This document shows, one piece after another, positions 5,409 to 29,001 of a DNA stretch of 36,876 nt (positions are counted from its first letter, which is position 1; the number at the start of each line of letters is the position of its first letter). The position numbers were made by a program, and so were the translations under genes. Below the pieces are notes generated by a model. It saw nothing but the letters and a program-made list of their open reading frames with translations. It had not been told where the DNA came from and searched no databases. Source of the DNA: Bacteroidales bacterium. GTDB taxonomy: Bacteria; Bacteroidota; Bacteroidia; Bacteroidales; UBA12077. The DNA lies in NCBI GenBank assembly GCA_027859205.1, contig JAQIBH010000005.1, forward strand, positions 1 through 36,876, read 5' to 3'.

Positions 5409-6500
5409 TTATTTCGGTGCTAAGCGATACAGGTAGATGCCAATAATGGTATAGATAAAGTTAGGCATCCATACTGCGATAAATGGATTCATACTGCCAC
5501 TTATAGCAAACATTGTTGTAAAACGCATAAACAATATATATGAAAAGCTCAATGCCAAGCCAAGCCCAATATGCATACCAATTCCTCCTCGAACTTTCCG
5601 TGACGACAATGAAACACCAATTAAAGTTAAAATAAAGGTTGAAAATGGGTATGCAAATCTTTGATATTTATCAATTAATAACTCAACAACATTATCGGCT
5701 CCTTTCATATATTGTTGCTCAATATACTCATTTAACTGGGGTAATGTCATCGTTTCCGTGAAGTTTTGCATACGCTTAAATTCCTCAGGAAACATATATA
5801 ATACTGTATCTATTTTAGCTCCAGAAGTAATTTTTTCACTCAAACTATCAATATCTCTTATATAATAATTTCTTATTGTCCATTTTGAAATTGATGTATC
5901 CCATTTAATATAATCCGAAATTAGTTTAGATTTTAAAACACCTTCTTCGAATTTTTCAATAGAAAATTTATACCCTATATCGTTCGATGTATTATAACTT
6001 TTCATATAAATAAAAACTCCGGGTTTTATTTGCCTATGTATATCTTTATCAGTATTCCGAACCGGGTTTTTAATATATTTATATTCAAAATTTTTTCTAA
6101 CTACATTTGCAGGAGGAATGATGTAGGCCATTAATAAAAAAGATATTAAAGCAATAACAAGTGCTGAAATAAAATAAGGATACATTAATCTTTGAAAACT
6201 AACTCCACTACTAAGAATTGCAATAATTTCAGTATTTGCTGCTAATTTTGATGTAAAAAAGATGACAGCAATAAATGTAAATAATGAACTAAAAAGATTC
6301 GCAAAATAAGGAATCCAATTCAAATAATAATCAACTACAATTTCTCCAAAAGGAGCCGATTTCTCCAAAAAATCTTCAACTTTTTCAGCAACATCAAATA
6401 CTATAGCAATACTAATTATTATTATAATAGCAAAGAAATAAGTCCCTAAGAACTTCTTTATTATATAAATATCAATTTTTTTAAGTCCTAAAAAACTCAT
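5409..6500 (-). CDS. LptF/LptG-family lipopolysaccharide export permease
   Basis: A 363-residue inner-membrane protein of the YjgP/YjgQ family. With an LptB ATPase these permeases extract lipopolysaccharide from the inner membrane and feed the periplasmic Lpt bridge. Visible are an N-terminal amphipathic start and TM1 (about residues 15-35), further membrane segments at about 55-85 and 100-128 ending in AYIIPPANVVRKNFEYKY, a periplasmic beta-rich domain (about 130-275), and three C-terminal TM segments from FAYPFSTFILTLIGVSLS onward. The RYAYP-like motif after the periplasmic domain fits LptG as well as LptF, so no symbol is given. Its start overlaps the tgt stop by ATGA, indicating translational coupling. 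Confidence 0.87.
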   Translation of the reverse strand: MSFLGLKKIDIYIIKKFLGTYFFAIIIIISIAIVFDVAEKVEDFLEKSAPFGEIVVDYYLNWIPYFANLFSSLFTFIAVIFFTSKLAANTEIIAILSSGVSFQRLMYPYFISALVIALISFLLMAYIIPPANVVRKNFEYKYIKNPVRNTDKDIHRQIKPGVFIYMKSYNTSNDIGYKFSIEKFEEGVLKSKLISDYIKWDTSISKWTIRNYYIRDIDSLSEKITSGAKIDTVLYMFPEEFKRMQNFTETMTLPQLNEYIEQQYMKGADNVVELLIDKYQRFAYPFSTFILTLIGVSLSSRKVRGGIGMHIGLGLALSFSYILFMRFTTMFAISGSMNPFIAVWMPNFIYTIIGIYLYRLAPK

Positions 6501-24226: not shown

Positions 24227-27200
24227 TTATTCTCTTTTATCAAGTACTGCCTCCCTAAATAATTTACGCTCTTCTTTACTCAGTTTAAAAATATCATTTT
24301 TCACCTCATTTTTTAAATAACTTACGCCAATCCTGAACATTTTTAGCGGGATCACACTTTCATTATATTCAGCAAGTATTTCGGTTAGCGTTTTTTCAAT
24401 ATTATTTAATCTTTTATTTTCATAATCCTCAATGCTTATCAAAATATCAAATAAAGAATCAGGCAGGGATTTCCAAAGTTGCTTATCTTTTTTCTCTTTT
24501 TGTAATAACTTTATTATAAAATCAAAGTATGATTTAATAAATGCTTCAGAGCCAAATCTAAAAAGATTATAAAAAATATCTTCAATTAACGAAACTGTCA
24601 ACAAATCATTATCAATATTTTTAATGAGTTTAATTATAAGTTCTTTACTTTTATTTTGGTCATTTATCCTTAAATAAGCACCAAGTAAACTAAAGTTTGT
24701 GAACATATTCTCAGAATTTATTTCCAGTCCATTATGAAAGGCATCAAACGCACTTTCAATTTTGTCTGCTTTCAAGTAACTTAATCCTAGACTGTTGTAT
24801 CTATCATCTTTTTCAGGATTAAGCTCAATTGCCTTCCTATAACTTTTTATTGCTTCTTCGTATTGTTTCAGATTTGAAAATAAAATCCCCAATGCGTAAA
24901 AAGCTTCATCATTTTCAGGATTAATTTCCACTACTTTTTGGTTTGCTTCTATGGCTTCTTTATATTGTTCTAGGTTTAAAAAAGCAATTCCAAGTCCGTG
25001 AAAAGCAACTTCATTTTCAGGATTAATTTCCGCTGCTTTTTGGTACGCTCCTACAGCTTCTTTATATTGTTCTTGGCTTAAAAATGCTATTCCTAAGCCT
25101 TGAAAAGCAACTTCATTTTCAGGATTAAGCTCAACTGCTTTTTGGTACGCTCCTATGGATTCTTTATATTGTTTTAGATTTAGAAACGCGAAACCCAGAT
25201 CGTTAAAAACATTTTCATTTTCAGAGTTAAGCTCAATTGCTTTTTGGTAAGCTCCTATGGCTTCTAAATATTGTTCCAGATTTGAAAATGAAATTCCAAG
25301 TCCGTGAAAAACCACTTCATTTTCAGGATTAAGCTCAGCTGCTTTTTGGTAAGCTTCTATAGCTTTTTTATGTTGTTTTAGCTTTAAGAACAGAATTCCC
25401 AGCCCATTTAAAGCCCTTTCATTTTCTGAGTTAAGCTCAACTGCTTTTTGGTAAGCTTCTATAGCCTTTTTGTTTTTTCCTAGATTCTCAAGAGCAAGAC
25501 CTATATTAAAATAAGCGGTGTCTATATCCGGTTTAAGCTCAACTACTTTTTGAAAACTTTTAAGGACATCTTCATGTTTTCCAAGTTTGCCTTGAGCAAT
25601 CCCTATTTGATAAAAATAATTATCGTCTTTCGGATTTATTTCTGCAGCTTTTTGGTATGCTTCTAAGGCATCTTTATATTGTTTCAGTTCTGAAAATAAA
25701 AATCCCAACTCGTGAAAAGCCCAATCATTTTTAGGATTAAGCTCAACTACTTTTTGGTAAGCTTCTATGGCTTCTTTATATTGTTTTAGGTTAAGAAATG
25801 CAATACCCATATTAGCATAAGCGGTTTCGTTATCTGGTTTAAGATCAACTGTTTTTTGGAAATTTTTCAAAGCATCTTTGTGTTTTCCAAGATTACCTTG
25901 AGCAAGACCTATTTGATAAAAATAATTATCACCTTTCGGATTAATTTCTGTGGCTTTTTGGAATGCTTCTATGGCCGCTTTATATTGTTTTAGATTTAAA
26001 AATGTGTTTCCTAGCCCGTTAAAAGCTCCATCATTTTCGGGATTAAGCTCAACAGCTTTTTGGTAAGCTTCTATAGCTTTTTGGTATTTTTCAAGATTGC
26101 TAAAAGCAGTACCCATATTAATATAAGCTGTGTCATTATCTGGATTAAGTTCGATTGCCTTTTGAAAATTTTTCACGGCATCTTCATGCTTTCCAAGGTT
26201 ACCGTGAGCAATTCCTATGTTATAAAATAGATCATCGTTTTCAGGAAAATGTTTTACCGCTTTTTTATAGTGCTTAATAGCTTCTTCGTATTGGTTTTCT
26301 TCAATAAAGACATTTCCCTTTTTAAAACTCTCATATGACAAGTCTATTTGTTTAAGAGGCCCTGTGTTGGGCGAATGAATTATACTATCCAATTCTTTAT
26401 AATTATCAATTCTATCTAAAACTCTATGAGAAAATGAATTTTTCTCTCGTTCCAGCTCACTTAAAACTAAACCATACATCATTGCTTCATTTTCGAATTT
26501 ATCTTTTATCTCCTTACATTGAAACTTTGCTCCGTATTTAAACTTTAAGTATTGTTCCTTCAAAATTCTTCCATCATAATAGGCACTTAAGAAATCAACG
26601 AACAAACTTGAAATTCCATTAGGATTTTCACTAATTTCAAAACATATTCGCATCAAGGGTTCCTTTAACTCATAATAAACATCTTTACCTGACTTATTCT
26701 TATCAATCATACCCTTATTAAAGAGCAAAGATAATTGCTTACTAATAACATTAGGTTCAATAAAACATGCTACAGCTATTTCTTTTCCGCTTATTGCACC
26801 ACGATTCAGGCTTAAATATTTTACAATTTTTTGTTGTAGTGGTGGCAGGTCATTAATAAATTGTTCATAATATGGCTTTAAATCGTTCATTACTTTTATA
26901 AAAATACCCGAAAGTTCAGATTTGAAATCTGCCTTTAAAAAGCTATAAAATGTAACAAGTAAACGATGGTTGCCTTCTGTAAGTTCGTAAATCGCCTTAA
27001 GCTTGCCCTCTAATTCGTTCTCTTTAATTACACTTGCGAGTTCATCATTGCCTTCGGTTTTTGCAATTACGCCCAAAAACCTTACGGTTTCTTCAAAGTT
27101 GAGTTTTTCAAGTTGAGAAATATTAAAGAAATTATAGAACGGACTTTTACTATCCTGAAGATTAGCTATTAAGTTTTGACTGGTTGCAATTATAGTAAGG

Positions 27201-27740: not shown

Positions 27741-28922
27741 TTAATATGCTTTATTTCTTTTCCACCATAATTTTAATAAAGAGTACTTAAAACCATAAGC
27801 TCTTTCCTCTTCTTTACTTTCACGAAATAGATATCCATCGTTTTTTAGCCTTTCAATTTCTTTATTAATTTCAATTCGGTTAATTTCTGTTGTATGTACT
27901 AGCACATTATTGGCAATTTCAGCCTCTGTTACGAGCATAGTGCTTTTACTTACGAAATTTAAAATATAAATTGAAATTTCAAGTCTAGGATAATAATGCT
28001 CAATCCTGTCATAGAAATGTTTAATACTTGCCTTACCTTTGGTATCATTCACTATTTCCTCAAATGCATCTTCTATTTTTTCTAATTCAGTATTTTTCTT
28101 TGATTTTGTTATTTTATCAAATACAATATCTATGAAATAAGGAATATTGTCTGACCTTTCACATATCATCTTTATTAATTCATCGGCCAAATCTAAATCG
28201 CAGCCTAGATTAAGACATTTTCCAAAATAAATGGCATTTTCATCAGTGAACGTCTCAAGCTCGTACAGATCCATATGATTTAAGGGATCTCCAATATTGT
28301 GTCCAGTCCTTTTTATTTTGTCCAGTACTAAATCGATACCAATTGAACCGCAGTAAACAAATCTTATCTTTTTGAATTCATTTTCAAAAGTAATATTTCT
28401 AAAAAACCCAATTATTACAGAAGCCTCATCATTTGGTAATTCATCAAGGAATATTGAGAACTCATCCAGCATTATTATAATCAACTTATCCTTTTGCTTT
28501 TCAATCAGCTTTTTAAAGAGATATAATAACTTTTTCTGCCATGAGTACTCTATCTTTTTTAATTTAACACCTGGCACTTCTTCAACCACATTAGTTGCTT
28601 TGTTGTAAAAATATTCAATCTTCTTTGATACTCCTTCGTCTATAAGATCCATTTCTTTTACTCTGTCAAGTAAAACTGATGCCAAATTTTCCGGAGAGGA
28701 AACTCCCTCAATAGGTTTATAAATAGAAACAAATCCATCTTGTCCATCAGCATCCATTTTTCTTAATATTGAACTTTTACCAAAGCGTCTTTCTGCAAAA
28801 AAAGCAACACCTTGTTTCTCAAGAATGCTCCAAAGGTCAGATATTTCTTCATCACGACCAACAACATCTCCTGTTGCAACTGCCCCACCAGTACTGGGCG
28901 TAATAGGAATAATTTCTTTCAT
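27741..28922 (-). CDS. Archaeal-ATPase-like P-loop NTPase with winged-helix tail
   Basis: A 393-residue protein. A GRDEEI motif at about residues 22-27 precedes Walker A AERRFGKSS (43-51, lacking the first Gly of GxxxxGKS). Walker B is LIIIMLDEF (147-155), sensor 1 is around FVYCGSIGID, and SDNIPYFID resembles the sensor-2 region of archaeal-type ATPases. The C-terminal ~90 residues form a winged helix ending YSLLKLWWKRN. The apparent TTG start at 28940 lies in the -7 box; the ATG at 28922 (MKEIIPITPSTGG) is preferred. It is the first gene of a two-gene unit with the TPR-ATPase. No nuclease or other effector domain is visible; function is unknown. Confidence 0.8.
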   Translation of the reverse strand: MKEIIPITPSTGGAVATGDVVGRDEEISDLWSILEKQGVAFFAERRFGKSSILRKMDADGQDGFVSIYKPIEGVSSPENLASVLLDRVKEMDLIDEGVSKKIEYFYNKATNVVEEVPGVKLKKIEYSWQKKLLYLFKKLIEKQKDKLIIIMLDEFSIFLDELPNDEASVIIGFFRNITFENEFKKIRFVYCGSIGIDLVLDKIKRTGHNIGDPLNHMDLYELETFTDENAIYFGKCLNLGCDLDLADELIKMICERSDNIPYFIDIVFDKITKSKKNTELEKIEDAFEEIVNDTKGKASIKHFYDRIEHYYPRLEISIYILNFVSKSTMLVTEAEIANNVLVHTTEINRIEINKEIERLKNDGYLFRESKEEERAYGFKYSLLKLWWKRNKAY

Positions 28923-28937
28923 TATACAATTTTTATA

Positions 28938-28968
28938 CAAATATATAACTTTATTTGACGTGCGTCAA
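28938..28968 (-). promoter_or_regulatory. Candidate promoter of the two-ATPase operon
   Basis: On the minus strand a TTG (plus 28966-28968) and TATATTTG (plus 28938-28945) are separated by 20 bases, matching the Bacteroidota consensus. The ATG at 28922 follows after 15 bases. The first 16-bp repeat lies across the spacer and the -33 TTG. Confidence 0.55.
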
Positions 28969-29001
28969 GTTTTGCGTACGTTATTTTTGACGTGCGTAAA
29001 T
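28954..29001. repeat. Three tandem 16-bp repeats, putative operator
   Basis: Copies start at exactly 28954, 28970 and 28986 with shared pattern TTTnnCGTnCGTnA. Copy 1 (TTTGACGTGCGTCAAG) contains the near-palindrome TTGACG-TG-CGTCAA, copy 2 is TTTTGCGTACGTTATT, and copy 3 is TTTGACGTGCGTAAAT. The CpG-rich core stands out in an AT-rich gap. The position over the candidate promoter suggests repression by a multimeric DNA-binding protein. Confidence 0.75.

Follow-up and report, generated by a model that had tools for sequence, protein, structure and literature searches.

A triple palindrome over the predicted promoter of a two-ATPase operon: a candidate autoregulatory operator that appears to travel with its genes

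A small operon encoding two ATPases, P1 and P2, in the genome of a Bacteroidales bacterium is preceded by an array of three near-palindromic repeats with a period of 16 bp. The array appears to be unique in its genome and overlaps the predicted promoter; its position, copy number and period are conserved upstream of homologous operons, its word changes between clades, and the two proteins carry winged helices of different character. We put a probability of about 0.7 on the reading that the three repeats form a cooperative operator through which the P1-P2 operon would be negatively autoregulated by steric block, with P2 as the most likely reader. The array lies in a stretch of 36,876 nucleotides (contig JAQIBH010000005.1), the whole of which is referred to here as the window and of which a preliminary description had been made from the sequence alone.

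The array and the promoter it overlies

The operon served by the array consists of two genes on the minus strand, P1 and then P2. P1 (27741-28922, minus strand) encodes a 393-aa ATPase related to PDB entries 2FNA and 2QEN, with a C-terminal winged helix, and most likely starts at the ATG at 28922 rather than at the TTG at 28940 given in the mechanical list of open reading frames. P2 (24227-27739, minus strand) starts 1 base after the P1 stop and encodes a 1170-aa STAND-like NTPase with a winged helix and tandem TPRs.

Direct reading places the starts of the three repeats at 28954 (TTTGACGTGCGTCA), 28970 (TTTTGCGTACGTTA) and 28986 (TTTGACGTGCGTAA), giving start-to-start spacings of 16 and 16 bp, and the pattern TTTnnCGTnCGTnA fits all three copies with 0 mismatches. 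The preliminary description spoke of three exact repeats of 16-bp period; the period is indeed exact but the copies differ in sequence: 1 and 3 agree at 14/15 positions, and copy 2 is more diverged. The repeats are more aptly viewed as three near-palindromes of 14 bp (TTGACGTGCGTCAA and variants), with 16 bp from one centre to the next, which we treat as candidate operator copies without a strand: O1 (28955-28968), the near-perfect palindrome TTGACGTGCGTCAA; O2 (28971-28984), TTTGCGTACGTTAT, with a CGTACG core; and O3 (28987-29000), TTGACGTGCGTAAA. Within the 150-bp upstream region the array scores 91, and none of 10,000 dinucleotide shuffles scores as high (0/10,000; top shuffle 88). The loose single-copy pattern with 1 mismatch has 4 matches in the window, which is not significant given that 13/100 shuffles reach 4; significance in the window hence comes from the regular array and not from the single-copy pattern. 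The window's upstream region passes the triple-palindrome score used below and fails a simple lag test (below 17/24), so its case is carried by the palindrome-aware score.

The same array scattered elsewhere in the genome had been named beforehand as an outcome that would speak against a link to these genes, and pattern searches of the assembly (3,616,109 bases in 209 contigs, 95.5% complete) found it once. The exact 14-mer pattern occurs 7 times genome-wide, 3 of them within the array, and the two-copy pattern with <=1 mismatch gives 12 rows, 4 of which are this array on both strands and 8 of which are lone 1-mismatch matches elsewhere. No second such array was found in the 3.6-Mb genome by these searches, which would miss more diverged arrays.

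On the minus strand, a candidate -33 element, TTG (28966-28968), which we take to be a Bacteroidota-type promoter motif, is separated by 20 bases from a candidate -7 element, TATATTTG (28938-28945), and both recur in relatives, the TTG 18-20 bases before a TAnnTTTG-like box. The promoter elements proposed in the preliminary description are thus present, whereas its placement of copy 1 merely between them has to be revised, because the O1 palindrome includes the TTG and the array overlies the predicted -33 element. The sites therefore sit over the candidate regulator's own promoter, as far as that promoter is correctly predicted. Among 25 Bacteroidota-type members with the CGTACG word, window included, which were checked for TAnnTTTG and its variants, 15 carry a TAnnTTTG-like box with a TTG 18-20 bases ahead of it, and this TTG stands immediately before an array core every time. 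The array lies just downstream of TATATTTG in four relatives (L068, L069, L126 and L130), and neither arrangement is seen in the remaining 6/25. Both placements would block initiation, and repression thus fits better than activation. The centre of the GTTATATAAC operator of the archaeal pairs (L135, L136 and L139) resembles a TATA box, and the same array architecture seems to work with archaeal promoters.

These placements bear on the idea that the array is an activator site, bound cooperatively upstream of the promoter as by SARP-LAL or MalT-type STAND regulators. Two of the three window copies do lie upstream of the -33 element, and STAND-linked PimR activates through three heptameric direct repeats, as described in PMC5930380. 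One copy, however, covers the -33 element, the array is downstream of the -7 box in the four relatives mentioned, and none of the periods of 14, 16 and 28 bp amounts to a whole number of helical turns, all of which makes activation quite unlikely.

According to the autoregulatory reading, the three palindromes would be occupied by dimers of a winged-helix protein from the operon itself, most likely P2 and perhaps together with P1; the occupied array would cover the -33 region and keep RNA polymerase off the promoter, which would be freed by a signal acting through the TPR or NTPase parts or by a falling protein level. Three sites suggest cooperative dimers. As 16 bp correspond to 1.5 helical turns, O1 and O3 would lie on one face of the DNA and O2 on the other, and with neighbours on opposite faces the spacing is neutral on repression. 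The conserved array over the promoter supports the earlier interpretation of a multimeric binder that would block polymerase; binding by P2, repression as its effect and control by NTP state or a TPR ligand are what we infer here.

Conservation of the array and change of its word

Homologues of P1 are patchily distributed, occurring in 12/196 relatives and 21/393 genomes of the order, and in 71/395 genomes of the phylum (profile E<=0.001), where many are partial; the window's genome is counted in each of these figures. The phylum scan lists further, mostly partial, matches beyond the loci used here. A profile scan of the GTDB collection gave 35 named loci, which include Bacteroidota MAGs, Chryseobacterium and Mucilaginibacter isolates, cyanobacterial bins, Gordonia otitidis and three archaeal bins. 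The set of 65 upstream regions leaves out one that runs off its contig (L098), partial loci (L100-L105, L140 and L063), two near copies of L066 from Moraxella, one containing an IS (L074 and L075), and loci identical to earlier ones (L107, L110, L115, L120, L127 and L133), and single-gene relatives (L052-L054, L061, L062, L064, L072, L073 and L141-L170) were counted apart. L046, represented by its upstream region, lacks a whole P1 and is absent from the tree built from 64 P1 proteins.

The nearest orthologues (68-77% identity: L044, L045, L046, L106, L108 and L109) have three CGnnCG-type copies at 16 bp, with one copy or another mutated. Across the whole set, 27/65 upstream regions reach 18/24 identity at lag 16, compared with 0.0 expected from shuffles and 0/229 upstream regions of other ORFs from the same loci; among the other lags from 8 to 40 the maximum is 6/65, reached at lags 27, 28 and 32. 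The triple-palindrome score identifies 48 of the 65 at p<0.01 and 53 at p<0.05, as against 2/229 and 9/229 of the controls, which is what chance predicts. The commonest best period is 16 bp (35/48 upstream regions with an array), and when the 64 P1 proteins are clustered at 60% identity, 29/37 clusters have at least one member at p<0.01. The upstream regions that miss p<0.05 (12/65) include two with a gene start that is wrongly set or lost (L137 and L045, the latter missing its array where the gene's 5' end is lost), five that show repeats by eye (L046, L069, L071, L079 and L114) and four with weak arrays (L080, L090, L092 and L096); L132, from a Pirellula bin that falls among the CGTACG loci of the tree, lacks both an array and P2. 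Two of the near orthologues are decayed: in L045 (near 5800-5860) the array and promoter run into about codon 41 of P1, and in L046 (57-1237) P1 is broken into two frames and the array persists.

The comparison of upstream regions that the preliminary description called for therefore shows that orthologous operons from other families, orders and phyla keep the spacing, and the P1-P2 ATPase pair seems to have an autoregulatory triple operator as a family trait.

The array words, grouped by eye, match clades on the tree of the 64 P1 proteins. CGTACG at 16 bp is found in Bacteroidota, cyanobacterial bins and a Gordonia otitidis isolate, that is, in three phyla, the Gordonia isolate having four copies by eye. 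GTTATATAAC, also at 16 bp, is found in three archaeal bins and one Desulfobacteraceae bin, for which misbinning is possible as the locus is a 4.3-kb contig. GAATnnATTC has a 16 bp period and a clade of its own, as has CAAC-n6-GTTG with a 15 bp period, and CAAT-n6-ATTG has a period of 27-28 bp, with Moraxella plasmids carrying TAACTATAAAATTATAGTTA-like copies beside it in the tree. The site sequence thus follows the encoded protein rather than the host. A word that is constant across phyla and changes between neighbours is unexpected for a host-encoded reader and places the reader in the cassette: judged from these sequences, the reader is most likely encoded in the operon and travelling with it, and operator and reader would move and diverge together.

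This pattern also weighs on the idea that the array belongs to a global regulator of the host, FNR/CRP-like or other. O1 reads TTGAC-N4-GTCAA, which resembles FNR/FixK boxes. Against such a regulator stand the change of the word with P1 clade, its constancy across hosts of different phyla and the single array detected in the genome, and we regard it as very unlikely. An FNR/CRP-type site was tried as a candidate and rejected: TTGACGNNCGTCAA occurs exactly only at 28955, allowing 1 mismatch adds O3 and four other places, and 2-mismatch counts are no higher than those of a reversed control pattern (74 vs 94 per strand).

Two candidate readers

Both proteins of the operon have a winged helix. In P1 it comprises residues 314-378 (27789-27983, minus strand), as judged from the secondary structure of the model and from charge. 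The model, built from 31 sequences, has a mean pLDDT of 88.6 with the C-terminal winged helix visible; single-sequence AlphaFold was useless (pLDDT 34.7). P1 matches 2FNA by profile (E 5.6e-9) and 2QEN by Foldseek (E 2.6e-11), and its fold matches include ORC2/Cdc6-type ATPases that hold DNA and the MalT structure 8bob. Its winged helix has a mean net charge of -2.9 and is positive in 6/59 proteins, and there are no transcription factors among the 16 PDB profile matches of P1.

The winged helix of P2 (residues about 298-360; 26660-26848, minus strand), the proposed array reader, is ArsR/SmtB/MarR-like: its profile matches SmtB (E 9.6e-6) and other ArsR and MarR repressors, its mean net charge is +3.7, and it is positive in 51/59. 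The TPR region, a proposed sensor, follows at residues about 474-1010 (24710-26320, minus strand). The TPRs of the window's P2 exceed the Pfam cut-off, and all 25 families listed for it are TPR-type; its NTPase was assigned by alignment to relatives of P2, in four of which (L049, L068, L069 and L070) an NTPase of the AAA_16/nSTAND5/NACHT/ATPase_2 kind is above the cut-off. A P-loop NTPase is therefore followed by a winged helix and then by superstructure-forming repeats, the order that defines a STAND NTPase; across the P2 homologues the TPRs are usually, though not always, present.

A P-loop frame aligning with P2 lies downstream of P1 in 60/64 loci, with a direct sequence match to P2 for many of these frames and not for, e.g., L082-L087. 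No such frame is seen after P1 in L067, where opposite-strand frames follow, after the shortened P1 of L099, where the following frames look by eye like transposases, in L132 (a 389-aa frame with no match) and in L136, where the contig ends after 204 bases. Among close orthologues (window, L044, L106, L108 and L109), P2 is 1170, 1003, 870, 802 and 799 aa long and shares 71-79% identity in its N-terminal part, with the length variation apparently in the TPR part, as if the TPR repeats expanded and contracted quickly. In Chryseobacterium, a third gene of about 352 aa abuts or overlaps the end of P2 (L118 8448-9503, L122 8455-9510 and L129 8440-9498); its product matches RlaP in L118, and it is possibly an effector or partner in that lineage.

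P2 would be the better candidate reader, given that its winged helix is ArsR/SmtB-like and mostly basic, whereas that of P1 is mostly acidic and has no repressor match. For 45 pairs with arrays, operator distance is correlated with P2 winged-helix distance given that of P1 (partial r 0.237, p 0.0005) and not with P1 winged-helix distance given that of P2 (r 0.007, p 0.41); given only the recognition helix of P2, the P1 winged helix retains a small link to the operator (r 0.071, p 0.032). When the own ATPase domain is taken as background, neither winged helix explains operator distance (p 0.19-0.82), and the choice of P2 over P1 hence rests mainly on domain character. The earlier proposal that one of the downstream winged-helix proteins may be the autoregulator is in line with the clade-wise change of the word, which makes them candidates, P2 probably being the better of the two.

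The opposite assignment, in which the C-terminal winged helix of P1 binds the palindromes and P2 is only sensor or effector, has to be weighed against single-gene ATPase_2 relatives. These P1-like proteins have a winged helix and their own 14-bp-period arrays, e.g. of TTACGCATTTTGCG units: 16/30 show the repeat at lag 14, compared with 2/229 controls, and only 9/29 reach p<0.01 by the triple score. None of the 30 has a P2-profile match downstream on the same strand within the stretch covered, which is up to 1.5 kb. Arrays without P2, the DNA-holding ORC2/Cdc6-type matches of the P1 fold and the small link given the recognition helix of P2 alone all favour P1 as reader. The link is gone, however, given the whole P2 winged helix, the P1 winged helix is acidic on average with no PDB transcription factor matched by its profile, and the winged helix of the single-gene relatives fits the P2 profile (20/30 at E<=0.01, best 2.8e-8) better than that of P1 (10/30 at E<=0.01, best 2.1e-4). 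We consider P1 as sole reader rather unlikely. It had been the initial idea, suggested by the arrays of the single-gene relatives, and was dropped after the winged-helix comparison favoured P2.

The single-gene proteins (MNPF...GY.SPEYFCDRE type; L141-L170, L061, L062, L064 and L072) have tandem palindromes, often at a 14-bp period, with diverse words, e.g. TTACGCATTTTGCG, CTAACATTTTGTTA and CCTAAAATAGGTAA. A search with one of them gave matches in 85/198 genomes of the order, often several in each and a few of them P1 genes, and they form a separate, larger family of self-marked ATPases.

Genomic setting and known systems

The operon in the window is flanked by a CBU_0592-type gene and an RprY gene, beside gcvP. 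In 18 gcvP loci of the genus there is no P1 within 1.5 kb beside gcvP; five of them (L174, L178, L179, L182 and L188) have gcvP close to the CBU_0592-type and/or RprY gene with another gene or nothing between, and the other 13/18 have different neighbours or end too early. A place that is empty or otherwise filled in the genus indicates that the cassette was inserted here or lost elsewhere.

Such a place, the even spacing of the repeats and the fold match of P1 to ORC2 are what could be expected of a DNA-maintenance site, that is, of iterons or a centromere-like array for the ORC-like ATPase of an integrated element. The arrays, however, abut the P1 start and overlap promoter-like elements, and no replication, partition or integrase family is found among the scanned neighbouring proteins of the window, which leaves this reading extremely unlikely. 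An iteron-type origin was rejected as a candidate, with no replication initiator family beside the array and promoter-like elements overlapping it; the term iteron-like in the preliminary description is apt for the spacing and not for an origin, there being no replication gene among the neighbours scanned.

A plasmid search for P1 homologues found four distant ones, a search of viral contigs with one query protein, which reaches close relatives only, found no close homologue, and none was found in phage records. Plasmids of Moraxella osloensis carry a distant P1-P2 pair (L066 1557-9241; L075 2735-4771); on one it lies two to four genes from 7-cyano-7-deazaguanine synthase and qatD, and on another an IS5-family transposase sits within the P1 homologue. 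Triple sites with other words before the pair in remote bacteria and in archaea suggest that it carries its own on-off switch between species.

Of ten hand-picked neighbours scanned, seven are ordinary enzymes or surface proteins. Two look like defence genes (an Abi_C/AbiJ-like gene in Mucilaginibacter L124 and an SNF2 helicase in L051 matching ZorD and DpdE models), and RlaP of Chryseobacterium L118 is an uncertain case. In the window itself the operon has ordinary neighbours, no effector domain is among the families listed for P1 or P2, and PADLOC gives no match for P1 and TPR-driven or weak matches for P2. A defence role for the pair is only hinted at. A bolder reading, which we hold to be unlikely, is that an immune-type receptor rests docked on the promoter array, whose six half-sites template a P1-P2 assembly in its inactive state. 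The winged helix, which in NLR-type STAND proteins plays only a structural part, would here be a DNA-reading head; the TPR arm would meet an invader's product, and an NTP-driven rearrangement would make the assembly leave the promoter. Its departure would free an active receptor and open its own gene, an amplification loop in bacteria and archaea.

For the autoregulatory operator that we favour, the array offers a testable control logic for the ATPase pair, and a scattered and unnamed pair gains a signature: three palindromes at 16 bp, or at 27-28 or 15 bp in sister clades. With words that differ and an architecture that is constant, the arrays form a natural series for the change of DNA specificity of a winged helix inside a STAND NTPase, which bears on whether the NLR-like winged helix descends from, or can serve as, a DNA reader.

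No description of the P1-P2 pair or of such arrays was found in the literature searched, which lay mostly outside subscription journals, and none of an operator array for the archaeal Walker-type ATPases SSO1545 (presumably PDB 2FNA) and PAB2304 (2QEN), to which P1 is related by profile and fold. The winged helix of P2 is most similar to those of ArsR/SmtB and MarR repressors (SmtB, as above), families in which palindromic operators over promoters and autoregulation are common. Unlike in these repressors, the domain lies inside a large NTPase-TPR protein that has a partner ATPase, and the sites usually follow one another as a set of three. P2 also resembles MalT and PimR/SARP-LAL regulators in joining a STAND-type NTPase, a DNA-binding domain and helical repeats, as MalT does. 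SARP and LuxR DNA-binding domains are separate modules, whereas the winged helix of P2 lies between the NTPase and the TPRs. PimR binds cooperatively to a short array of three repeats, according to PMC5930380, but it activates another gene through direct heptamers, and the array described here consists of palindromes 16 bp apart at the operon's own promoter.

Another regulator of related composition is IniR of mycobacteria, in which an SSO1545-like ATPase is combined with a MalT-like repeat domain and a DNA-binding domain; according to PMC5760070, this DNA-binding domain is C-terminal and SdiA-like, and IniR is required for iniBAC induction. The strings "inverted repeat" and "autoregulat" are absent from the main text of PMC5760070. 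Both IniR and the P1-P2 pair thus join an SSO1545-like ATPase, repeats and a DNA-binding domain, IniR in one protein. Among defence and toxin-antitoxin operons, cassettes under their own regulator are represented by AbiE, WYL-type regulators and RptR, and the self-control of AbiE acts through inverted repeats, as stated in the abstracts (PMC7319586, PMC9122601 and PMC12255303). The repressor in those systems is an antitoxin, a WYL protein or a dedicated repressor, whereas the candidate here is the STAND NTPase itself.
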